Source: Mollicutes bacterium (GTDB taxonomy: Bacteria > Bacillota_I > Bacilli_A > Izemoplasmatales > Izemoplasmataceae). Taken from it: a stretch of DNA of 50,456 nucleotides. This document shows positions 29,433 through 45,692 of the stretch, in pieces; position 1 is the stretch's first letter, and each line of letters opens with the position of its first letter. The DNA is taken from contig PWMS01000088.1 of assembly GCA_003558105.1 (NCBI GenBank), positions 1-50,456 on the forward strand, written 5' to 3'. Under the pieces are notes generated by a model. That model saw only the letters and a program-made list of their open reading frames with translations. It made no database searches and was not told the DNA's origin. Both the position numbers and the translations under genes were made by a program.

Positions 29433-29487
29433 TTAAGGCATTGCTTTTTAAACTGACCACTCAATATGGTATAATGAGGTGTTAAAG

Positions 29488-30591
29488 ATGGAAAGTCTTT
29501 ACATACACATCCCTTTTTGCACACAAATTTGTAGTTATTGCGATTTTCATCGTGAAATCGCGAATCCGCAGAAAAAAAAGGCTTATATTAACGCGCTTAA
29601 ACACGAATTATGGTACTTTAAACCAAGATTGAACAACCTCAAAACGATCTATATCGGCGGGGGCACACCAACGGCCTTATCGCCCGCAATGTTGGCGGAT
29701 TTTTTAGCCTTCTTAAACGAACATATAAACATGGCGCAAATTAAAGAATTCACCATCGAGGCCAATCCCAAAGACATCACCGAAACGATGGCAATCTTGT
29801 TTAAAAAATATCACATCAACCGTATTTCACTAGGGGCTCAAAGCTTTGATGATGCGTTATTAAAATTGTTAAGACGTAACCACGAAGCGAAGGATATTTT
29901 TCATGCTATCGATATGTTAAACCGCCACGAACTTCATAATATCTCTTTGGATATGATTTTTGCCTTACCGACGCAAACGATGAACATGCTGAAAAAAGAC
30001 CTCAAGACCTTGATGCATTTAAAGATTAAACACATATCGTATTAAAGTTTGATATTGGAACCAAAAACGAGACTTTATCACGCCGTTCAAAAAGGCCAAC
30101 AAAGACTGCCGGGTGAAGAAATTGAAGCGGCGATGTTTGAAGAAATCATCGAAAGTTTATCAAACGCTTCTTTTAAACAATATGAAATTTCTTCTTTCTC
30201 CAAGGCTTCTCCCTCCTTGCATAACACCTTAATTTGGCAAGATGGCGATTACCTTGGTATCGGTAGTGGGGCGCATTCTAAATATGATAACACGCGCTAT
30301 GGCAATTTGCCGCGCCTTAAAACCTATCTTGAAGTTATGACAGAAGCGCGCCTTCCCCCAAGAGAAAGCTACCCTTATGAAGATAAACGCGATTTTTTAT
30401 TGATGGGGATGCGCCTTTTAAAAGGCGTCAGTCTAAAAACGTATCAGACGCGTTATCATTGTGATTTTTTCACGGATTATCCGAACTTAAGACCGCTTTT
30501 AGACCAAGGTTTCTTGGTTTTAAAAAACGACCACCTAGCTTTAAGCCAAAAGGGCATGATGGTCGGCAACGAAATCTTTAAACTATTTTAG
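29488..30591 (+). pseudogene. hemW: Heme chaperone HemW (radical SAM, coproporphyrinogen-III-oxidase-like), interrupted by in-frame TAA
   Basis: Read through, this is a 367-residue HemW of normal length. The radical SAM iron-sulfur motif is CTQICSYC (residues 11-18) after YIHIPFC, followed by IYIGGGTPT, TIEANPKD, RISLGAQSFDD and, in the second half, GDYLGIGSGAHSK. Codon 186 is TAA (30043-30045) between HISY and SLILEP. The family almost always has tyrosine just before SL in this segment, so one base change from TAT or TAC explains the stop. Both halves are in one frame and show no other damage. The downstream half could restart at TTG 30049 but lacks a clear ribosome site. HemW handles heme delivery to membrane enzymes. 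The start ATG follows GAGGTG. Confidence 0.88.
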
Positions 30592-32685: not shown

Positions 32686-32723
32686 AAAACACTTTAAATC
32701 CTTCGTGGGCATTAAAGTGTTTT
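32686..32723. terminator. Bidirectional terminator between deoB and the coiled-coil operon
   Basis: A 12-bp stem (32686-32697 with 32712-32723) closes a 14-base loop, with A- and T-runs on either side. It lies between two convergent genes. Confidence 0.78.
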
Positions 32724-35604
32724 ATTTATATTGGATGCGTAAGTTTTTAATCGCTTTATCGCGTTCTTTGAAAAGTTCTTTTTTCACTTGTTGACTGCGT
32801 TTATGTTGCGTTAAATTGGTTTGTTTAAGATACGATTGATAGGCTTTGATGGTTGGTTTTAAGGCATCATCTAAACGCGATCTTTTTTGCATGAGGGCTT
32901 TGGAATGTTTCGATAATTGTTCTTTTAATACGTGGATTTGATCTTGTTTCATGGTGCTTAGGTTTTTCTCCCATTGCGTTGCGGTTTTTTTCAAGCGCGC
33001 TTCTAAGGCTTGGATATCTTTTTTATAGTTGGGCGCTTTGATTTTGGCTTCTAAAGCATCGTGTTCTTCAAGATACGCTTTTTGTTCGTCTTTGATTTGA
33101 CTTAAGGCCTGATTCAAGGCTTCATCTTGATTCGAGGTATCTTTTTCAAAGGCTTCTTTTAGTTCTGCTTTCTTAGCTTCCAAAGCTTTGATGGCCTCAC
33201 TTTGTTTGGTTTCATCGCGAATATTTTCAAGCTGTTCGTCTAGGCTTTTTAATTTGTCTTTTGGGGTAGAAATCTTGTCTTGATAAAGGTTTTTTGCTTC
33301 CTCAATCGCTTCGTCTAAGCGGTCTTTAGCGGTTGTAGAAGCTTCGCTTTCAATATAAGGGGCCAAAGTGGAGGTCATGTTGTTATCTTTGTACTGTTGT
33401 AATTTTTCTTCGCTGTTTTGCAACATATATTCGAAGGTTTCTACGCTTTTTTCTTTGATTTTAAGCGCATCTTCTTGAGCTTTATCGGCTCTGTTTTCTG
33501 CTTTTTCAATCTGGCTTTTATAGCGTTTTACATAAGGATCACTAGCCGCTTTTTCTTCGATTTGATTGATTTTATGGGCGTAGTTTTCTTTAATTTTATT
33601 TTCTTGTTCCTTGAGTTCTTTTTTATCTTTTTCCTCCCGGAACAAAGCTTGTTTATACGATAAGTCTTCTAGTTTACGATCGCGTTCTTTTTCTAGTTCC
33701 AAAGTGTCAGTTTTATAGGGGCGTTGGTGTTGCGAGAGTTTTTCTTTCGCGTAATCAAGTTCCCGTTTTAAAGATTGCTCGATGTTTTGTAAGCGCAGTT
33801 GATATTCGCTTTCGGCGTATTTCATCTGTTGTTTGGCGAAATTGATTTGACTCTCAAGGGTAGTAGATACCATTGCCTCATTGACATCGTGTCCAACATT
33901 GAGACGTTCAGCTTGAGCTTTGGTTAAGGTGATTTCACTATCGTATAGGGATTCGATTTTTAAAAGTTGTAACTCGTATTCCTTATCGGCTAAAGAAATG
34001 AGGGCATGTTGGTATATCTTCTCATTTTGGATATCTTCTTCCATACCGAGACGCTCGATTTCACCATGCCTATCATAATCGAGGTGTTGCTTGTCGAGTT
34101 TGGCTAAAGCTTGGTTGAGTTCAATTTGTTTTTCGTGTTGTTGTACGGCTTGTGTAATTTGCACCCCGAGGGCTTTTTGGTTTAAATGTTTAACCTTAAC
34201 GTTTTTCAAAAGTGCCATATAAAGTTTTTTGAATTCTACTTTGAGCGGTAGTAGTTGTTCGACGAGTTTGATTTCCGCTTCTAAGAATTGTTTTTTGCGA
34301 AGATTTAAAAGTTTTTGAATTTCTAAGGCGAATGTGATCGCTTTTTGAATGAACTCTTCGTAGTTATGCAAGGCTTGATTGAGTTGTTCAATCCAGTCTT
34401 TGTTTAAGGAAAGATCGTTTTCTAAGGCGTTTAGATCCTCACGTAGTTTAAAGACCTCTTTTGAGTCGCCTTTTTCAATGGCCGCTTTGGCTTGGCGGTA
34501 TTTTAAGTCGTATAAAGCTTGGAGATATTCTTTTTCGCGATGCATCTGCGCTTTTTTTAGTTTTTCGGTTTCGGATTTGACCTTTTTGGTGGCTTTTCGT
34601 TCGAGTTTTTCTTCAAATAAATTAAGGGTGAATTTTTGTTTACGGTCAAAGGCTTTTAATAAGTTATTCAGTTTTTCAAGGTCGTTTTTCTTTTCTGCGG
34701 CGATAATCTCTAAGCGTAAGGTTTTCATATCCTTGGCGAGATTTTCTTTTGTGGTCCGTTCTTTGTCTAAACGTTCTTGATGTTTGGCTTTCAAATTGTT
34801 AAGGGTATCGGCATGCACGGAAGCGATTTTATCATCTAAAGCTTGCATGTCGGCTTCAAAGGTCTCTTTAAGCTTTTTTTCTTCAGCCTCAAGCGCGGTT
34901 TGTCTTTCATCCATCGTGGTTTGGATCCGCTCATCGAGAGACAAGTCTTTTTGTGCATCTAAAAACATATGCGTGCGTTTGTCAAACAGCTCTTCAAAGC
35001 TCGCTAAAAAGGTTTTAAAGGCTTCGTTGAAACTTAAGGTATCGTCGTTAAAGGCGGCTAAGGAAGATTCCAATGTACTTTGAATCTCGCTGTTACTTTG
35101 AAAGTGTGTATCCGTGGCTTGGATGGTGGCTTTGATAAAGGTTTCGATATGTTCGTGGACGTTTTGGATAAAGGGTTTGACACCGGTTTGAACCACCAAG
35201 GCTTCTTCTAAAATCTCTTGGAGGGTTTCTTTTAAGTTATTAAGATCAACATGAAGGTCGCCTTCTTGATAGGCTCGCATATTTTCTTTGCGCATCTGGC
35301 GCAAGTTTTCATAAATTTGGTTTTTAGCATCTAGTAGGTAATTGAGTTGTTTAAGGGTGGTTTCATGGTCCTTTTCGTTGATATCGGTCTTAAGTCTTTC
35401 AATTTCGGCGTTTAGGATTTTAAGTTTTTCTTGGGTTTCTTCTAAGCGTTCTTGGTGCGAAGCCTTCAGTTTTTGGTTGGCATCAACCACTTCTGAAATA
35501 AGGTTTTGTAGAAGTTTACTTTCCTTCTGCAAATCCTCATCAATTAAGGCGGCAAGACTTTTTTGTGTTTTATCTTCGGTGGTGAGGTCATATTTTTTTG
35601 CCAT
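32722..35604 (-). CDS. Giant coiled-coil protein of unknown function (960 aa), second of a pair
   Basis: A 960-residue protein that is almost entirely charged heptad-like helix, with Leu, Ile or Ala in regular a/d positions between Lys, Glu and Gln. I see no cysteine, very few glycines, no signal peptide, no membrane segment and no Walker or other nucleotide motif. A region around residues 110-220 is less charged (GVKPFIQNVHEHIETFIK, FKTFLASFEELFDK) and might be a helical globular part; the region around 410-470 (LLNLRKKQFLEAEI, LPLKVEFKKLYMALL) is more hydrophobic. The C-terminus is basic (ELFKERDKAIKNLRIQYK). It lies 15 bases after the 1163-residue gene and its ribosome site AAAGGAG is in that gap. 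A cytoskeletal or scaffold role is plausible but unproven; SMC-type ATPases are excluded by the missing ATP site. Confidence 0.8.
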   Translation of the reverse strand: MAKKYDLTTEDKTQKSLAALIDEDLQKESKLLQNLISEVVDANQKLKASHQERLEETQEKLKILNAEIERLKTDINEKDHETTLKQLNYLLDAKNQIYENLRQMRKENMRAYQEGDLHVDLNNLKETLQEILEEALVVQTGVKPFIQNVHEHIETFIKATIQATDTHFQSNSEIQSTLESSLAAFNDDTLSFNEAFKTFLASFEELFDKRTHMFLDAQKDLSLDERIQTTMDERQTALEAEEKKLKETFEADMQALDDKIASVHADTLNNLKAKHQERLDKERTTKENLAKDMKTLRLEIIAAEKKNDLEKLNNLLKAFDRKQKFTLNLFEEKLERKATKKVKSETEKLKKAQMHREKEYLQALYDLKYRQAKAAIEKGDSKEVFKLREDLNALENDLSLNKDWIEQLNQALHNYEEFIQKAITFALEIQKLLNLRKKQFLEAEIKLVEQLLPLKVEFKKLYMALLKNVKVKHLNQKALGVQITQAVQQHEKQIELNQALAKLDKQHLDYDRHGEIERLGMEEDIQNEKIYQHALISLADKEYELQLLKIESLYDSEITLTKAQAERLNVGHDVNEAMVSTTLESQINFAKQQMKYAESEYQLRLQNIEQSLKRELDYAKEKLSQHQRPYKTDTLELEKERDRKLEDLSYKQALFREEKDKKELKEQENKIKENYAHKINQIEEKAASDPYVKRYKSQIEKAENRADKAQEDALKIKEKSVETFEYMLQNSEEKLQQYKDNNMTSTLAPYIESEASTTAKDRLDEAIEEAKNLYQDKISTPKDKLKSLDEQLENIRDETKQSEAIKALEAKKAELKEAFEKDTSNQDEALNQALSQIKDEQKAYLEEHDALEAKIKAPNYKKDIQALEARLKKTATQWEKNLSTMKQDQIHVLKEQLSKHSKALMQKRSRLDDALKPTIKAYQSYLKQTNLTQHKRSQQVKKELFKERDKAIKNLRIQYK

Positions 35605-35619
35605 CTGAAGGCTCCTTTC

Positions 35620-38600
35620 TTAATCGGTTATATCTTTGATGGTGCTTTCAATAAATTTGTCGATTTGCTCAAGGTTTAAATTTTCAACTTGGGCTAAGGC
35701 CTCTAGGTTTAATTCTGCGTCAAAGCTTTGCGCTTTGATGGTTTCTTTGATATCTTTCCCAAGGCGTGCATGCGCTTTTTTGTAATCGTCGTAAAGGCCG
35801 TATTCTTTAACTTTAATGGCTTCTTCAAGATGTTTTTGTCGGGCTTGTTTGATGCGGATTTTATCGTTGATCTCGCGTAAAGCGGTCTCAATTTGGCTTT
35901 CAAGCCGGGCTTTCGAGGTTAAAATTTGTTCTTCGTAATCGTCTAGGGTTGCCTTTAAGGCGTTGTTTTCTTTATCGATGGCTTTGGCTTTTTCTTGTTT
36001 CAAGCTATCGATGGCTTCGGTCTCAGTTTGTTTTATATAGTTATAATTTTCTTGTGTGGTCTCGCTGTAATCCTCTAAACTTGAGGCGATATCCTCGGCT
36101 GTGCGTTTGCTGTTGGAAAGCGCGTGGTCATAGATTTGTTTCGCATCTTCCAAACGTTCTTTAATCACGTTGTGGCGGGTTTCAAAACGTTCGATGATCG
36201 CATTTTTCTTACGTTCGTAAGTTTCTTTTTCATGGGTGACGGCTTCATTTTTGTTTTGAGCGGCGGCTGTGATGCTTTCTTGATAGTTTTCAGAAAGCGT
36301 GTCGATTTGACTTTGGTAACTTGTAATTTGTTCTTTGAGTTTCGCTTGCGCGTCGTAGGAATCCTTTAAGTTTTCGTCTTTGGCATCCTGCAATGCTTCT
36401 TCGATCGCTTCGATATCTTTTTGGTAGGATTCTTCTAAACCTTCTAAACTGATTTCAAGCGGTCTTTTTACTTCTTCGTAGCGATTTTTCTCTTCATCAA
36501 TCGCTTGATGGTAGGAGCGCTTTGCTTTATTCAACCGCGTAGAATCTTCTTCATAAAGTGGTTTGAATAGTTTGTCTAGGGTTTGTTCACCTTGGTCCTT
36601 AAATTGTTGTAAGAATTTTTTTAATTGTTCAAGTGCTTCTAAAACGTCATCTTTTAGCGCGTTAAGAGGCACGTGTTCTTGGCTTTTAAAGGTTTCAAGC
36701 GGTTTTTTATAGATTTTGTGTAAGGTGGTCATGGTGCTTTTTTTATAGGTGTCGAGTTGATCATGTGATCGTTTTAGGTTTTGATCCAACTTATTTTTAA
36801 GTTGGTTTTTCTTGCGGGTATTCTTTTCGTTATTCAACGCTTTAAGATCAATCCTATATAAGAACTCGTAAGCTTCTTCAAGTCGTTTAATGGTAGCTTC
36901 AATATGTTCGGTAATCTGATCTTTTTGGCTTTCTTTGAGCGGATTTAAAACGGTTTTTAAGGTTGTATCTTCTGACTTAATCGCTTCTTTGTCTTGTGCG
37001 AATTGGGTTAAAATACGCGCATGGGTTTCTTCAATCGGGTTTAATCTGGCTTCGATCATACTTTTAACATCGCGAATGTTTTCTTGCGCGTCGGCACTTT
37101 CGCGTTCAAAGGCTTGTTTGATGAAGTTGATGTTGGCTTCGTGGGTTTTATCTTCATTTTCTAACGCTTGTTTTAAGCGATGTTTTTCACTAACGTAATT
37201 TCTTTCGGCTTTCTTTTTCTTGCGATCGGCCCCTTGATTAAGTTTGGCCTCTTTTTTACTGATTTGACTCTCCAGCCGTTGCAAAGCGCTTTGATGTTCT
37301 TCCATGGCGAGTTGGATCCGAGTTTTTTCGCCATCTAAACGATGTTTTTCTTCCGCGATTTTTAAATCATAGTCTTTTTCAGTATTGAGCTGATTAATGG
37401 CGTGATCGTGTTTTAACATCTCGATTTCAATCTCGCGGCGAGTGTTTAATTGTTCTAAATCGGTAGCGACATGGGCTTGACGCAATTCGTATACCGCTTT
37501 AGCTTCTTCGCTATTGCGGTCGTTTCTGATGTGTTCAAGCGCGGCTTTCTTTTCTTGCTTGCGGTCGCTTAAGCGTTTATCTTCTAAAGCTTCTTCGATG
37601 GTTTGATGATGTTTCAAGGTTTCTTTAGCGTGGTTAAATTCAATCGATTCCGTTGTTTTTTCATGGCTGGTTTGGCGAATTTTCATCTCTTGACGCAAAG
37701 CCGCATCTTTTTTCTCTGACGTGATTTTTTCTTTGTGTGTCCGGATTTCTTTTAAGGCATCTTTGGTATCTAAAAAGGCCCGAATTTCGTCGATTTCTTT
37801 ATATTGTGGTTTTAAGTTTTTCGTGGTTTCATAAAGCCGGTCCAAACGAGACAGTTCAAAATGATAAAAATGACTGAAGAGACTTTCAAAAAAGTCTTTA
37901 AGTTTTTTTAGATGTTGCTTCGGATGCGTCTTTGTTAAAAATGTCTCGAGTGCCGCTTCGCGTTCAGGATTGATCTTTTGGAAAATATCGAATTTTGCTT
38001 TTAGTTGATTGAGTTGTGATTTTAAAAGCGCATCGTGTTGATCGAAAGAAGCCTTCAAAGACCCTAAAGTGTTATCGGCGACATTTTGAATGGCTTTGGT
38101 GGTCTCTAAGATGGTCTCTTCTAATAAATCGATATGGTTGTTTAGCGCGGTTTCACGTTTTTGGTTGAGATCAATTTGTTGTTGAATCGTTTTGGCTTTT
38201 TGGGTATCTAAGGTGTCATTTTGTTCGACTTCAAGCGCTTTTTCTAAACGGTGAATCTCGTTTTTAAGGTCGAAATCTAATTGTTGGGTAAAGTGCGCTT
38301 TTGTCGTTTTAATTAACGCGTTTAATTCATGTAAAACCGCGGTCGTGTAATCAAAAGGTTTTTTGAGTTCATCACTTAATTCAGACATATGATTGGATAA
38401 AACTTTGGCGGCTTCGTTATAGTTTTTTCGAACGGAGTTAAGTCGATAATCCAAGGTGTTCTTTTCATTTTTTAAGGCATGGATGGTATCATCGGATAGT
38501 TTTTGAAAGTTATTTTGCGTTTCAAAGAAACGTTCATCAAAACTACCTTTGACTTGGTTTAGACGTTTTTTTGTATCTTTGTAAGCTTTTTGGATTTTGC

Positions 38601-39111
38601 TTAACAGTTGATCGAGGTCGGCTTCGATTTTTTCTTGATTTTCTTTTAAGTTTTCTTCATGTAGGCGAACTTTTTCTTCGTACATCTCGCTGTTTTGAGC
38701 GTGTTTATCTTCAATTTCGGATAAGGTTTTTTCTTTTTCATGCTCGAGGTGAGTCAAACTGTCGCTGAGTTCTTCTAAACGGGCGCGATGGTTTTCTTCA
38801 TGGTTTTTAAGTTGTTTTTGATGTTCCTTTTTGACTTTGGTTATATTTTTCTCTTGATTTTTTATGGCTTCTTCATGTGTTTTTAAAGCGTCGCGTTCTT
38901 TTTGTGTATAGCTTTTTTTAATATCTTCTAAGGCTTTATAATAAGCCGTTTCATTATCTTCAAACGCATTTTGGGCATAAGAAAGAACCCGGTCAATGTC
39001 TTTTTTCAACGACTGGATATTGTTTTGATGAGGGTCAATTTTGGCTTGTATGGCTTGTTCTATCGTGTAAAGCGATTGTTCTAGGGTATCGCGTTTGGCG
39101 GTTTTGGCCAT
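35620..39111 (-). CDS. Giant coiled-coil protein of unknown function (1163 aa), first of a pair
   Basis: A 1163-residue, very charged, nearly all-helical protein with no visible cysteine or tryptophan, no membrane segment, no signal peptide and no nucleotide-binding motif. Heptad-like runs are interrupted around residues 370-430 by a less charged part (FDIFQKINPEREAALETF, DFFESLFSHFYHFELSRL) and again around 760-800. Both coiled-coil proteins begin MAK followed by a short polar lead, and share similar stretches such as AI..L...K.Y.L.I.E in the middle, so they may be distant paralogs. The ribosome site AGGAGG and a good minus-strand promoter lie directly upstream. Size and composition recall bacterial filament scaffolds and mollicute cytoskeletal proteins. 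Function unknown. Confidence 0.8.
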   Translation of the reverse strand: MAKTAKRDTLEQSLYTIEQAIQAKIDPHQNNIQSLKKDIDRVLSYAQNAFEDNETAYYKALEDIKKSYTQKERDALKTHEEAIKNQEKNITKVKKEHQKQLKNHEENHRARLEELSDSLTHLEHEKEKTLSEIEDKHAQNSEMYEEKVRLHEENLKENQEKIEADLDQLLSKIQKAYKDTKKRLNQVKGSFDERFFETQNNFQKLSDDTIHALKNEKNTLDYRLNSVRKNYNEAAKVLSNHMSELSDELKKPFDYTTAVLHELNALIKTTKAHFTQQLDFDLKNEIHRLEKALEVEQNDTLDTQKAKTIQQQIDLNQKRETALNNHIDLLEETILETTKAIQNVADNTLGSLKASFDQHDALLKSQLNQLKAKFDIFQKINPEREAALETFLTKTHPKQHLKKLKDFFESLFSHFYHFELSRLDRLYETTKNLKPQYKEIDEIRAFLDTKDALKEIRTHKEKITSEKKDAALRQEMKIRQTSHEKTTESIEFNHAKETLKHHQTIEEALEDKRLSDRKQEKKAALEHIRNDRNSEEAKAVYELRQAHVATDLEQLNTRREIEIEMLKHDHAINQLNTEKDYDLKIAEEKHRLDGEKTRIQLAMEEHQSALQRLESQISKKEAKLNQGADRKKKKAERNYVSEKHRLKQALENEDKTHEANINFIKQAFERESADAQENIRDVKSMIEARLNPIEETHARILTQFAQDKEAIKSEDTTLKTVLNPLKESQKDQITEHIEATIKRLEEAYEFLYRIDLKALNNEKNTRKKNQLKNKLDQNLKRSHDQLDTYKKSTMTTLHKIYKKPLETFKSQEHVPLNALKDDVLEALEQLKKFLQQFKDQGEQTLDKLFKPLYEEDSTRLNKAKRSYHQAIDEEKNRYEEVKRPLEISLEGLEESYQKDIEAIEEALQDAKDENLKDSYDAQAKLKEQITSYQSQIDTLSENYQESITAAAQNKNEAVTHEKETYERKKNAIIERFETRHNVIKERLEDAKQIYDHALSNSKRTAEDIASSLEDYSETTQENYNYIKQTETEAIDSLKQEKAKAIDKENNALKATLDDYEEQILTSKARLESQIETALREINDKIRIKQARQKHLEEAIKVKEYGLYDDYKKAHARLGKDIKETIKAQSFDAELNLEALAQVENLNLEQIDKFIESTIKDITD

Positions 39112-39121
39112 ATGTAAGCCT

Positions 39122-39181
39122 CCTCGTTGAGGGTATAATCAACTTTTATTTTATCACATGCAGTGCTTAATGACAACGAGG
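39122..39181. repeat. Inverted repeat flanking the coiled-coil operon promoter
   Basis: CCTCGTTG (39122-39129) and CAACGAGG (39174-39181) are perfect eight-bp inverted copies 44 bases apart. One lies just before the ribosome site, the other overlaps the -35. They could be a looping operator. Confidence 0.4.
39148..39176 (-). promoter_or_regulatory. Sigma-A promoter of the coiled-coil operon
   Basis: On the minus strand TTGTCA (39171-39176) and TAAAAT (39148-39153) are exactly 17 bases apart, giving a leader of about 30 bases before ATG 39111. Confidence 0.65.
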
Positions 39182-41325: not shown

Positions 41326-41706
41326 CTATTCAATATAGATTTGTACGGTATCGCCATCACCGGATTCGATGTCAACGATTTTACCGTCGGTGCCTTGTTC
41401 GATGAGATCAAGGATTTGCTCGAAATCGATATCAACATCCATGTTTTCCATCTTTTTACTTAAATTAGGAATGCCTTTTTGTGATCTTAAAGCGACTTTT
41501 GCAAATTCAAGGGGAATTTGTACGTTGACTTTGTCGCCATCGCTTGATTTGATGCGAATTTTAAACATTTTAAAGGCTTCTTTTTTCTTGATTTTAAGGT
41601 CGTTGCCTTTAGGATCTTCTAAGGCTTTGAGTAATTCAGCGCCTTCTTGTGGGGTAATGGTCTGACTTTGAATCATTTCTAAAATTTTAATTTTTTCTTG
41701 GTTCAT
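41326..41706 (-). CDS. SHOCT-like (YvlB/LiaX N-terminal type) protein, soluble form
   Basis: A 126-residue protein. The N-terminus IQSQTITPQEGAELLKALE is the short helix-turn-helix element common in SHOCT-like and YvlB/LiaX proteins. A beta-rich part follows (MFKIRIKSSDGDKVNVQIPL), then VDIDFEQILDLIEQGTDGKIVDIESGDG and a final VQIYIE. The C-terminal half aligns well with that of the first gene of this operon (VDLEEIKMLMKHARGTKIHIVSDD). There is no membrane segment. Function is not established; relatives in Firmicutes associate with envelope-stress responses. The ribosome site GGAGAG overlaps the end of the DUF2089 gene, so translation is coupled. Confidence 0.7.
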   Translation of the reverse strand: MNQEKIKILEMIQSQTITPQEGAELLKALEDPKGNDLKIKKKEAFKMFKIRIKSSDGDKVNVQIPLEFAKVALRSQKGIPNLSKKMENMDVDIDFEQILDLIEQGTDGKIVDIESGDGDTVQIYIE

Positions 41707-41710
41707 AACT

Positions 41711-42088
41711 TCACTCTCCCAACATCTTTAAGGCTTCTTCAGAGGTGATTTCACCTTTGTGAAGTTTTTCTAAGATATCATCGCGCGTTTTTTGATGTTC
41801 CTCTTCATCCTCTTCGTCTTCAACTTTGTAGCCAAGACTTTCAGTGACTTCTTTCATCATCTTTTTCACCGTTGGATACGATACTCTAAGTTCTTTTTCC
41901 AACTTTTTGATGCTACCTTTGTTTTTGATAAACAGCTCGATGAAATATAAATGATCCTTGGAGAGATAATTGAATTTTGATAATTGGAATTTGCCACTGA
42001 TCTCAGTGTGACAGTTGCTACATTCTAATTTAGTAACAAATAAATCATGATTACAAATTGGACATTCGCCAATCACATACTTTTGCAT
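41711..42088 (-). CDS. DUF2089 family zinc-ribbon/HTH protein
   Basis: A 125-residue protein. A four-cysteine zinc ribbon (CPICNHDLFVTKLECSNCHTE) is followed by LSKDHLYFIELFIKNKGSIKKLEKELRVSYPTVKKMM, a clear helix-turn-helix of the sigma-like type, then an acidic linker and a C-terminal GEITSEEALKMLGE. The last element is the same EIT-xx-A helix found at the N-terminus of both neighbours. DUF2089 proteins are probable DNA-binding regulators; here the likely target is the operon's own promoter, which carries an inverted repeat. AAAGGAGG lies seven bases before ATG 42088; the frame is open upstream but lacks a ribosome site. Confidence 0.85.
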   Translation of the reverse strand: MQKYVIGECPICNHDLFVTKLECSNCHTEISGKFQLSKFNYLSKDHLYFIELFIKNKGSIKKLEKELRVSYPTVKKMMKEVTESLGYKVEDEEDEEEHQKTRDDILEKLHKGEITSEEALKMLGE

Positions 42089-42101
42089 GATAAAGCCTCC
42101 T

Positions 42102-42470
42102 TTAACTGATATCGATGCGTACAATCGCATCGTCGCTAACAATATGAATTTTTGTACCTCTTGCGTGTTTCATGAGCATCTTGATTTCTTCTAAATCGAC
42201 GTCTTCGCCTAGCTTTTCGTTCAATTTTGCAAACTTGTTCGTAAAATTAAAGGAAAAACTAAACAACCATAAGGGAATCGGAAAGATAAAAAGCATCCGT
42301 AAAAAGGAGTTTAACGCCGCCGATTCATCGGGTAAGGTGATCCGCATTCTTAGATAACGCGCTCTTCTTAGTTTCTTGATCGATGGCTTGCTTTTATACA
42401 TGGCATCATAAGCATCTTGTGTGGTTATCTCACCATGATACAGTGTACTTAAAATTTCATTTTCCGGCAT
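42102..42470 (-). CDS. SHOCT-like protein with hydrophobic segment, first gene of the operon
   Basis: A 122-residue protein with LYHGEITTQDAYDAMY at the N-terminus (the SHOCT-like helix), a basic stretch (IKKLRRARYLRMRI), a hydrophobic run of about 20 residues (FLRMLFIFPIPLWLFSFSF) and a C-terminal part aligned with the 126-residue neighbour. It appears to be a membrane-attached paralog of the third gene, with the middle strand region turned into a membrane segment. The ribosome site GAGGTGAT precedes ATG 42470. It might hold the complex at the membrane while the DUF2089 protein binds DNA, but this is inference. Confidence 0.68.
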   Translation of the reverse strand: MPENEILSTLYHGEITTQDAYDAMYKSKPSIKKLRRARYLRMRITLPDESAALNSFLRMLFIFPIPLWLFSFSFNFTNKFAKLNEKLGEDVDLEEIKMLMKHARGTKIHIVSDDAIVRIDIS

Positions 42471-42541: not shown

Positions 42542-42725
42542 ATATATAGTAATAAAAATCAATTTATTTTATATAAAAGTTAATGAAAACTTAAATTAAA
42601 ATCATAAATATTAATAAAACCTTATTTGTAATCTATTACAGATAGTCAGTTTTGATTGAAAAGGTAGAAATTCCCTTTGTTTTAAGGTATAATAGGTAAG
42701 AAATTAGCGAAGTAAGGTGATTTTA

Positions 42726-45692
42726 ATGGATGCATATCGCGTGGGGATAGATATTGGTTCAACCACTATAAAAGTCGTTGTTTTAGACCGCAATCATACC
42801 ATAATCCATAAGACATACGACCGCCATATGAGTAGTATATCCGCTTCTTTGAAGCGGATGTTTGAGGATTTGAAGCTGCATTTTGGCGCGCAAAAAATGC
42901 ATATTAATTTTACCGGTAGCGCAGGGCTTAGTCTCGCGAAAAATATTGGGGCGCAGTTTACCCAAGAAGTCATCAGTGCTACCAGCGCTTTAAGGCATCA
43001 TGTCGATGACATCGATGTTTGTATCGAACTCGGTGGTGAGGATGCGAAAATTATGTTTTTCGATGGTGCGAACGTCGAACAACGTATGAATGGGACTTGT
43101 GCTGGGGGCACAGGGGCTTTTATCGATCAGATGGCTTCGCTTTTAAATACCGATGCCGCAGGCGTCAATGAACTGGCTAAAAACGCGGAAAAACTGCACG
43201 ATATCGCTTCGCGTTGTGGTGTCTTTGCAAAAACCGATATTCAACCACTGCTCAATCAAGGGGCGCGGAAAGAAGATATCGCCGCTTCAATCTTTCAAGC
43301 GATTGTCAACCAAACGGTGGGCGGTCTTTCCCAAGGTCGAAAAATTCAAGGTAGGGTTGCCTTTTTAGGCGGACCGTTGAGTTTTGCTTCGGAACTTAGA
43401 AAACGGTTTATCGAGTTTTTGCATTTAAAGAATGTTTTCATCCCGGAAAACGGCGAAGTTTTTGTCGCTTTTGGGGCCGCTTTAGAAGCGCAAGAGACGC
43501 CTATTGATATCGTATCGATTATCGACCGCATTAAAGCGTACCGTAAAGCAGGAAAACACAATACCACGCAAACCATCGCGCCCTTATTTGAAGATAAAGC
43601 GGCGTATCAAGCATTTAAAAAACGACATCAAAAAGCGTCTTTGGACCGCACGCCCTTGCAGCAGTATAAGGGCAATGCTTACTTGGGCATCGATGCTGGT
43701 TCAACGACGACAAAAATGGTGTTGATGGGTGAAAATCATGAGCTATTGCATGAATATTACGCCCACAACCGTGGCAATCCCGTAGAGTTGGTCAAACAGG
43801 CCTTGCTCGCTTTATACGCTGAATTGCCCGCGGGGATCGTCATTAAAAAAGCGTATTCCACCGGTTATGGTGAAGCGCTTATTAAAAACGCTTTTCATCT
43901 GGATGGTTCTGAGGTTGAAACAATCTGTCATTACAATGCGGCTAAATTTTTTAATGAGGATGTTTCCTTTGTCGTCGATATCGGCGGACAAGATATGAAA
44001 TGTTTTAAAGTTGAAAACGGGGTTATCACCTCGATTGTCTTAAATGAAGCTTGTAGTAGTGGTTGTGGCTCGTTCATCGAAACATTTAGTGAGTCTTTAG
44101 GCTATTAAATAAAGGATTTCGCAAAGCTCGCCATTCGCAGTAAAGCGCCGGTTGACCTTGGTTCGCGTTGCACGGTGTTTATGAATTCTAGTGTCAAACA
44201 AGCGCAAGCCGATGCGGCTAAGACCGAAGATATTTCTGCGGGTTTGGCGATTAGTGTGGTAAAGAATGCGCTTTATAAAGTGATTCGTGCCCACGATGTT
44301 ACAGAAGAATACGGCGATAAAATCTTGGTTCAAGGTGGGACCTTTAACAACGATGCGGTTTTAAGAGCTTTTGAAAGAGAAACCGGTGTGATGGTTACCC
44401 GTCCGGAGATTGCCGGTTTGATGGGGGCCTTTGGCGCCGCTTTGCTGGCACAAAAAGAAAGTACAAAAGAAAACCATACCAGCCTACTCTCCCCACACGC
44501 CTTAAAAACGTTTACCTACGATACCCGCCGCGCGATTTGTAATAAATGTGAAAACCGGTGTCCTTTAACGATAAATATGTTTAACGACGGTAAAAAATAT
44601 ATCAGTGGCAACCGCTGTGAGAAGGGCGCAAATTTAAATGTGTCGTTTGATGAACTACCGAATTTATATCTTTATAAATATCAAAAGTTACACAACTATC
44701 AAAACTTACCAAAGAAAGATTATCAAGGCACGATAGGCTTGCCTTTGGTTATGAACATGTATGAAAACATTCCTTTTTGGGTGCCGTTTTTTAGCGCTTT
44801 AAAGCTTCGAACCATCTTTTCGGATCGTTCCAGTAAAAAGCTGTATGAAAAAGGGCAAGATACGATTCCCAGCGACACGATATGCTATCCCGCAAAACTA
44901 GCCCACGGTCATATCGAATCGCTTTATGAGAAAAAACCCGATATTATCTTTTATCCCAATATCCCTTATAACATCTTGGAAAAGGTGCATGCCGATAACC
45001 ATTATAACTGTCCGGTGGTGGCGCATTATCCCGAGGTTGTCGAGGCGAATATGACGCATTTAGATTTGGATAATTTCTTACAACCCTATCTCACCATGAA
45101 CGATAAAAAACGGTTTGTCGATGAAGTGCATACCATGTTAAAACCGTATTTCAACGTTAGTAAACATACGATGAAAATGGCTTTTGACCAGGGCATGGAA
45201 AGTTACCAAGCGTTTCGAAAAGAGGTTCAAGAAGAAGGCGAACGCGCTTTGGCTTATGCTAAAGCGCATAATCTTAACACCTTGGTACTGGCGGGAAGAC
45301 CTTACCATATCGATCCTGAAATCAACCACGGCATCCCGAAACTTATCCGCTCTTTAAACGTCGTTGTGATCAGTGAAGATGCCATCAACCATTTACACGA
45401 TGAGAAAGACGTCGATGTGTTAAATCAGTGGACATATCATACCAGGTTATATGATAGTGCCCGCGTTGTGGCGGGCTTGAACGCGCGGGTTAATATGGTC
45501 CAGTTGGTCAGTTTTGGTTGTGGATTGGATGCCATTACCAGCGATGAAGTTAAACTGATCTTAGAAAAAGAAGGCAAGTTATATACCCAAATTAAAATCG
45601 ATGAAATCAGCAATCTTGGTGCGGTTAATATCCGTTTAAGAAGTTTGCTCTCAACGATGAATGAAGAGGCGAAAGACCATGGCAGAACTTAA
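42726..45692 (+). pseudogene. 2-hydroxyacyl-CoA dehydratase activase with DUF2229 domain, interrupted by in-frame TAA
   Basis: Read through, this is a 988-residue protein. Two ASKHA ATPase (BcrAD/BadFG) units are seen: [15 protein letters not shown] with [14 protein letters not shown], and [18 protein letters not shown] with [11 protein letters not shown] and [11 protein letters not shown]. After the ATPase comes a DUF2229 part with the cysteine cluster CNKCENRCPL and CYPAKLAHGHIESL. Codon 461 is TAA (44106-44108), between SLGY and IKDFAKLA. The sequence beyond it (DLGSRCTVFMNS) is the normal continuation in the same frame. Activases use ATP to push one electron into the dehydratase, or act in an uncharacterised Firmicutes branch. 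The AT-rich 250 bases upstream hold a TATAAT (42689-42694) but no clear -35. The next gene overlaps its end. Confidence 0.85.

Follow-up and report, generated by a model that had tools for sequence, protein, structure and literature searches.

Genes A and B of a wall-less marine bacterium of the order Izemoplasmatales (genome 1.56 Mb) encode a real, old and uncharacterized pair of giant helical rod proteins that is constrained in length rather than in sequence. The two genes lie in the window, i.e., the whole stretch of 50,456 nucleotides that was analyzed. Our preferred reading, to which we give nearly an even chance, is that A and B are a cytosolic, non-enzymatic structural scaffold whose straight-bundle rods would provide a length-fixed internal framework. 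Neither the rod pair nor its Acholeplasma counterpart was found described in literature searches.

A is located upstream of B in a two-gene unit between deoB and ruvB (Table 1), and the locus map shows housekeeping genes as the neighbors of the pair. The two adjacent reading frames of 1163 and 960 amino acids noted in a sequence-only reading of the window, both starting with MAK, were recovered, as was the gap of 15 bases between them, which also holds the ribosome-binding site of B. A single shared promoter had been proposed as well, and one well-placed, extended -10 promoter-like site with a TG before the -10 element was identified just 5' of A; this site is a consensus match only, and such matches are not more common around the pair than in shuffled sequence. 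The shared promoter and the short gap suggest that the synthesis of A and B may be matched. In both proteins D+E+K+R amount to 37% and P+G to ~1.5%, and the claim that they are free of cysteine is correct (0 in A, 0 in B). The maximum 19-residue hydropathy of only 0.73 (A) and 0.30 (B) implies that neither contains a membrane segment, in agreement with the earlier statement that a membrane anchor is absent.

Table 1. Positions of the rod genes, their parts and other features (window coordinates unless a genome is named).
Feature	Position	Strand	Basis or remark
Gene A, giant helical rod protein, 1163 aa	35620..39111	-	ORF; N-terminus MAKTAK
Gene B, giant helical rod protein, 960 aa	32722..35604	-	ORF; N-terminus MAKKYD
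Promoter-like site TTGTCA-17-TAAAAT, TG before -10, ~37 bases 5' of A start codon	39148..39176	-	Consensus match only
Ribosome-binding site of A, GAGGAGG	39119..39125	-	Sequence reading
Ribosome-binding site of B, AAAGGAG, within the 15-base A-B gap	35612..35618	-	Sequence reading
A N-terminal arm, residues 10-298, straight amphipathic helix	38218..39084	-	Period 3.620; AlphaFold2 helices 10-140, 142-298
A central segment, residues 450-605, helical without clear hydrophobic period	37297..37764	-	Spectra, AlphaFold2
A C-terminal arm, residues 765-1080, period 3.63-3.66	35872..36819	-	Spectra; AlphaFold2 helices 765-810, 816-914, 916-1080
B conserved N-terminal patch, residues 28-79	35368..35523	-	Homologue alignment
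B conserved core, residues 536-618, densest conserved run across three families	33751..33999	-	Homologue alignment
Break in the helix of B, residues 568-574 (G571); predicted helices on either side 381-567 and 575-654	33883..33903	-	AlphaFold2, low confidence here
A. laidlawii rod, 1182 aa	G176:C1:385196-388744 (L214:5197-8745)	-	Beside ruvAB
hemN/hemW-like gene, split	29479-30591		One in-frame TAA
Large CoA-enzyme-activase-like gene, split	42717-45692		In-frame TAA
Three small genes (DUF2089 group)	41326-42470	-	

Elsewhere in the window, the in-frame TAA that splits the hemN/hemW-like gene stands where relatives with an intact gene have Tyr, and the split is either a sequencing or assembly error or marks a broken gene. 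The TAA in the CoA-enzyme-activase-like gene, which is a single reading frame of ~985-992 aa in several relatives, stands where relatives have Asp or Glu; a simple recoding of TAA would not readily explain two such interruptions in 50 kb that fall on different residues. The three small genes include one for a DUF2089 zinc-ribbon/HTH protein and one for a SHOCT-like DUF2089-C protein, are kept adjoining queA in much of the window's own family, and possibly form a regulator system.

In searches of Pfam and NCBIfam with A and B no model reached the cut-off, which bears out the view that the proteins contain no known domain. Pfam, NCBIfam, hydropathy and motif scans revealed no catalytic, membrane or DNA-binding domain in A or B, and the Walker A motif GxxxxGK[ST] was found in 0/46 B and 0/43 A homologues, so that the reported lack of an ATP site extends to the whole set. 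Likewise, a confident match to a known family such as SMC, SbcC or a phage tail protein was not obtained. Membership in the SMC/Rad50/MukB group was rejected, given that the Walker A motif and a Pfam SMC match are missing and the hydrophobic period is 3.62 rather than 3.51; a profile comparison of the rods with SMC gave noise level. The Foldseek matches of both AlphaFold2 models (top MukB, Wadjet and Smc5/6) were discarded, with TM-scores of ~0.08 and rmsd values near 90 A. A phage tail or tape-measure protein was likewise dismissed on account of the housekeeping neighbors and the lack of a match to a structurally annotated phage family; PHROGs gave weak matches only (phrog_17020, function unknown).

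Izemoplasmatales is an order without a cell wall (PMC10868615), and the assumption of a wall-less host holds at the level of the order (PMC8397711, PMC10470597, PMC10868615). B was found in 39/49 genomes of the window's own family (f1) and, by profile searches, also in families f2 and f3, and the pair together with its location beside ruvB recurs in each of the three Izemoplasmatales families (f1, f2, f3). Absence from all close relatives, which had been raised against the pair, is not what we observed, as most relatives carry it. The named relatives matched by the B profile are mostly Candidatus Izimaplasma/Izemoplasma and Mollicutes/Tenericutes bins. Among the genomes carrying the pair are those taken as the cultured strains Xianfuyuplasma coldseepsis zrk13 (G045, 1,958,905 bp; PMC8397711), wall-less non-motile cocci of 300-800 nm without flagella, and Hujiaoplasma nucleasis zrk29 (G054, 1,808,583 bp; PMC10470597), wall-less cocci of 300-500 nm without flagella. 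The gene order in f1 and f2 is xerD-deoB > < B < A ruvB-queA >, sometimes with a few extra genes inserted adjoining deoB. The predicted conserved order was thus found in these two families, while f3 (931 + 1113 aa, locus L155) keeps the ruvB side only and has deoB elsewhere. Class-wide searches for B outside Izemoplasmatales yielded nothing beyond weak helix-type matches.

The lengths of both proteins are nearly fixed across the three families. B measures 918-989 aa (965 +/- 17, 46 homologues) and A 1113-1213 aa (1170 +/- 22, 43 homologues), with start codons called mechanically, corresponding to a variation of 1.8-1.9%. The median identity to the window protein within f1 is only 24-29%, compared with ~75% for RuvB, and falls to 10-17% in f2 and f3; B is better conserved than A. 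A steady length despite sequence drift argues for selection on geometry, a behavior that fits a spacer or frame. Deep homology was judged by the difference from reversed-sequence controls, in which composition and periodicity are preserved; raw profile-profile E-values were not used alone, since these controls showed them to be inflated by shared periodicity. The f1 and f2 proteins compare at E 3e-13 for A (reversed 4e-3) and 7e-41 for B (reversed 0.02), which firmly indicates homology. The f3 proteins appear related to these through a weak but collinear signal (f1A-f3A, E 3e-4, reversed 0.3; f2B-f3B, E 1e-3, reversed 0.2) combined with locus and length. In one f2 genus (g19, including G054, G056 and others) B is shorter, at ~925-946 aa, and its profile match is broken at about profile positions 287-333, i.e., one segment of B is shortened.

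The sequence-only reading also held that A and B share similar mid-regions and may be paralogs. In f1 the two profiles match at E 5e-11 (reversed 3e-3) over profile positions 590-818 of A and 534-755 of B, and the full sets of A and B at E 1e-13 (reversed 1e-6); no signal was obtained in f2. An origin of A and B from a duplication is therefore plausible, but not proven.

The pair has been lost in some genomes. In G029 (f1) ruvB and deoB lie 11 bases apart with nothing between them, and in G018 (f1) they enclose only a 462-aa gene that also adjoins deoB in its genus. This clean loss with intact flanking genes implies that the pair is dispensable in some lineages. In G031 the pair is replaced by a single 702-aa gene (L145:8680-10788) whose product matches A (E 1e-23, profile positions 531-1027) and not B; here, B has been lost and A shortened.

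The two proteins had been described as coiled coils. AlphaFold2 predicts almost only helix for A and B, which supports long all-helical rods, but the term does not apply in the heptad sense. In hydrophobicity spectra averaged over the homologues, the greater part of A and the N-terminal third of B have their maximum at 3.58-3.66 residues. With one pipeline, 75% of the strong windows of A and 42% of those of B fell into the 3.58-3.70 band, compared with 1% for SMC arms from the same class, whose period was 3.51. In the N-terminal arm of A the stripe remains in phase over 289 residues (interquartile range of the period 3.618-3.622, 43 homologues). Only residues 337-588 of B approach the heptad, weakly, at 3.51-3.55, and past residue 575 B shows mixed periods with components near 3.75. 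Since an undistorted helix has 3.63 residues per turn (PMC9858780), a stripe with a period of 3.62 follows the helix without winding around it, and hardly any supercoil is to be expected. A canonical heptad coiled coil, with a period of 3.50, was rejected for this reason, and heptad coiled coils should not be assumed for long helical rods of bacteria.

The stripe is bulky, with 54% ILVFM and ~4% Ala at its center in the A N-arm and B 36-208, and 9% Ala in A 816-1080. In repeats of this hendecad type, bulky cores require higher oligomeric states, and a two-stranded rod of the Scy or FilP type depends on a core of alanine (PMC9858780). Applied to the alanine-poor stripe, this rule suggests that A and B form straight bundles of three or more helices; two A chains folded back, N-arm beside C-arm, would be one such arrangement. 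The AlphaFold2 monomers reached a mean pLDDT of 78 (B, 23 sequences) and 80 (A, 20 sequences) with a pTM of 0.34, so that we take the predicted helix boundaries as usable and the overall arrangement as not. The most conserved residues of B (K541, E557, Q564, R567, Q586, F589, A590, Q593, E600, R604 and E615) lie to either side of its predicted break. The break could be a hairpin tip or hinge, and as a joint or docking site this region is the strongest candidate.

We propose that A and B would be two subunits of one cytosolic scaffold. Their very long alpha-helices, with the stripe straight along the axis, would pack into straight bundles of at least three strands rather than into a twisted two-stranded heptad coil. 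A would contribute two long arms of ~43 and ~47 nm (residues 10-298 and 765-1080) flanking the aperiodic center, the helix-break-helix core of B may act as joint or docking site, and both may assemble into a length-fixed framework beneath the membrane or around the nucleoid of the wall-less cell. This reading is supported by the fixed length, the in-phase 3.62 period, the bulky stripe, the lack of a catalytic, membrane or DNA-binding domain, the wall-less order, and the shared promoter with the short gap. It is also supported by a profile search of PDB, in which mainly apolipoproteins and designed helix bundles were matched and not heptad rods. Counting against it are the losses in G029 and G018 and the reduction to a 702-aa A in G031, the low pTM, by which no fold is established, and the prospect that walled lineages carry the single rod described below.

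It is also conceivable, if unlikely, that the amphipathic helices lie flat on the inner membrane face and stiffen or curve it in the manner of apolipoproteins. A period of 3.62-3.67 is that of surface-lying helices, the host is wall-less, and apolipoproteins A-I, A-IV and E were among the best matches of the PDB profile search together with designed helix bundles. However, helical wheels show a narrow hydrophobic stripe, lysine and glutamate mixed over the polar side and no enrichment of lysine at the interface, and the net charge of the rods is mostly slightly negative. These features are bundle-like, and the missing charge arrangement and the narrow nonpolar face speak against a class-A membrane helix or an exchangeable apolipoprotein type.

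Outside Izemoplasmatales, the sister families f12, f16 and f22 carry a single giant rod of ~1000-1230 aa at ruvAB on the opposite strand, i.e., unlike in Izemoplasmatales the locus holds one rod gene instead of two. One of these genomes (G176, f12, 1,496,992 bp) is taken as Acholeplasma laidlawii (CP000896; PMC2408644), whose rod is likely the counterpart of the pair. Two 3.6-period arms around a central part are common to all ten single rods examined. Their profile match to the pair, at E 1e-11 with a reversed control of 2e-8, does not prove a sequence relationship, and an HMM search of the single rods with the pair models gave no match; position, orientation, length and periodicity favor orthology of the single rod to A. 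The single rod may also occur in lineages with a wall, as wall genes are retained in some Anaeroplasmataceae (PMC10868615), a family that f16 or f22 may represent. Shorter rods of 596-614 aa with a period of 3.63-3.64 were seen by ruvAB in f18 (L193:7095-8939, L194:6979-8805, L213:7153-8943), with no HMM match to A or B, and f5 has a 1279-aa helical protein with a period of 3.64 several kb from ruvB (L211:2040-5879).

The SMC model had no match in 88/90 Izemoplasmatales genomes, single-contig ones included. The sole full-length SMC above the cut-off occurs in G042 (G042:C29, L168), a bin with 3% estimated contamination, on another contig than the rod pair, and possibly is contamination; G089 gave a weak sub-threshold match. 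A search of all candidates returned only shorter SMC_N proteins (ORFs of 267-574 aa, RecN/RecF-like or other) in nine genomes. Across the class, with the top two candidates per genome scored outside the order, 185/395 genomes passed the cut-off. The families without passing genomes include f2, f3, f5, f7, f9, f12, f16, f18, f20 and f22, and a loss of SMC specific to Izemoplasmatales was accordingly rejected.

These data bear on a rather unlikely alternative, namely that the rods take over the spacing or bridging role of SMC condensin in chromosome organization, perhaps close to ruvAB at sites of replication or recombination. The families in which this rod was seen beside ruvAB (f1, f2, f3, f12, f16, f22) show no SMC, G042 excepted, a full-length SMC is found in just 1/90 genomes of the order versus 185/395 of the class, and in a small sample of loci from seven SMC-bearing families (f8, f10, f13, f14, f15, f19, f21) no rod was seen beside ruvB. 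An SMC substitute is nevertheless at odds with the missing ATPase and DNA-binding domain and the mostly slightly negative charge. Moreover, SMC has been lost more widely than the rod is found (f7 showed neither in a small sample), both traits may simply mark one clade, and G018 and G029 do without both the pair and SMC. We regard the tracking of SMC absence by rod presence as a pattern to test and not as a result. In its widest and improbable form, an SMC-less clade of Bacilli would use giant non-ATPase straight rods by ruvAB for organizing the chromosome or linking it with the membrane, with one rod in Acholeplasma-type lineages and a duplicated pair in Izemoplasmatales.

HMW proteins scaffold the terminal organelle of Mycoplasma pneumoniae, and organelles of this sort in other wall-less bacteria are built from giant helical proteins that have no catalytic parts. 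By analogy, A and B could serve a special cell structure as its tether or as its scaffold for adhesion or motility, which we consider quite improbable, as zrk13 and zrk29 are cocci without flagella, zrk13 is non-motile (PMC8397711, PMC10470597), and no adhesin or organelle genes were recognized adjoining the pair. A defense or phage-derived element such as a ZorA-like tail or a MukB/JetC-like arm is very improbable: in PADLOC, A matches ZorA (E 2e-4) and JetC (E 4e-4) weakly, but these and the weak PHROG matches are of a type that a helical composition produces. Conservation at a single locus throughout the order is not what defense islands show, and Zorya ZorA and Wadjet JetC were rejected because no motor, nuclease or ATPase domain or partner was recognized in the proteins or locus maps.

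How wall-less bacteria control shape, division and DNA arrangement is an open field, and free-living Izemoplasmatales are barely studied. As a putative scaffold, the rod pair offers a definite target for tagging or deletion in strains that are in culture and has a likely counterpart in A. laidlawii, and the link between SMC absence and rod presence is a testable evolutionary pattern.

Taken together, A and B resemble several known systems in part. With SMC, MukB and Rad50 arms they share the length class of 1000-1200 aa and a nearly all-helical composition, whereas those proteins have ATPase heads with Walker A and arms with a period of 3.51. Apolipoproteins A-I, A-IV and E have a straight hydrophobic stripe as well, but A and B are several times longer and their stripe is narrow and without the class-A charge pattern; this likeness is physical and not one of descent. 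In Scy and FilP (Actinobacteria, DivIVA-like superfamily; PMC9858780) the core is alanine-rich, in A and B alanine-poor; phylum and context differ, no relationship was detected, and the N-terminal motif GYDxxEVD occurs in none of the A, B or Acholeplasma-type rods. Since this defining motif is missing, we describe A and B as working like the Scy/FilP rods without being members of that group: both systems have a hendecad-type periodicity near the pitch of the undistorted helix, and both comprise two rods of unequal length, in A and B plausibly paralogous, with a structural role that for A and B is a putative one.
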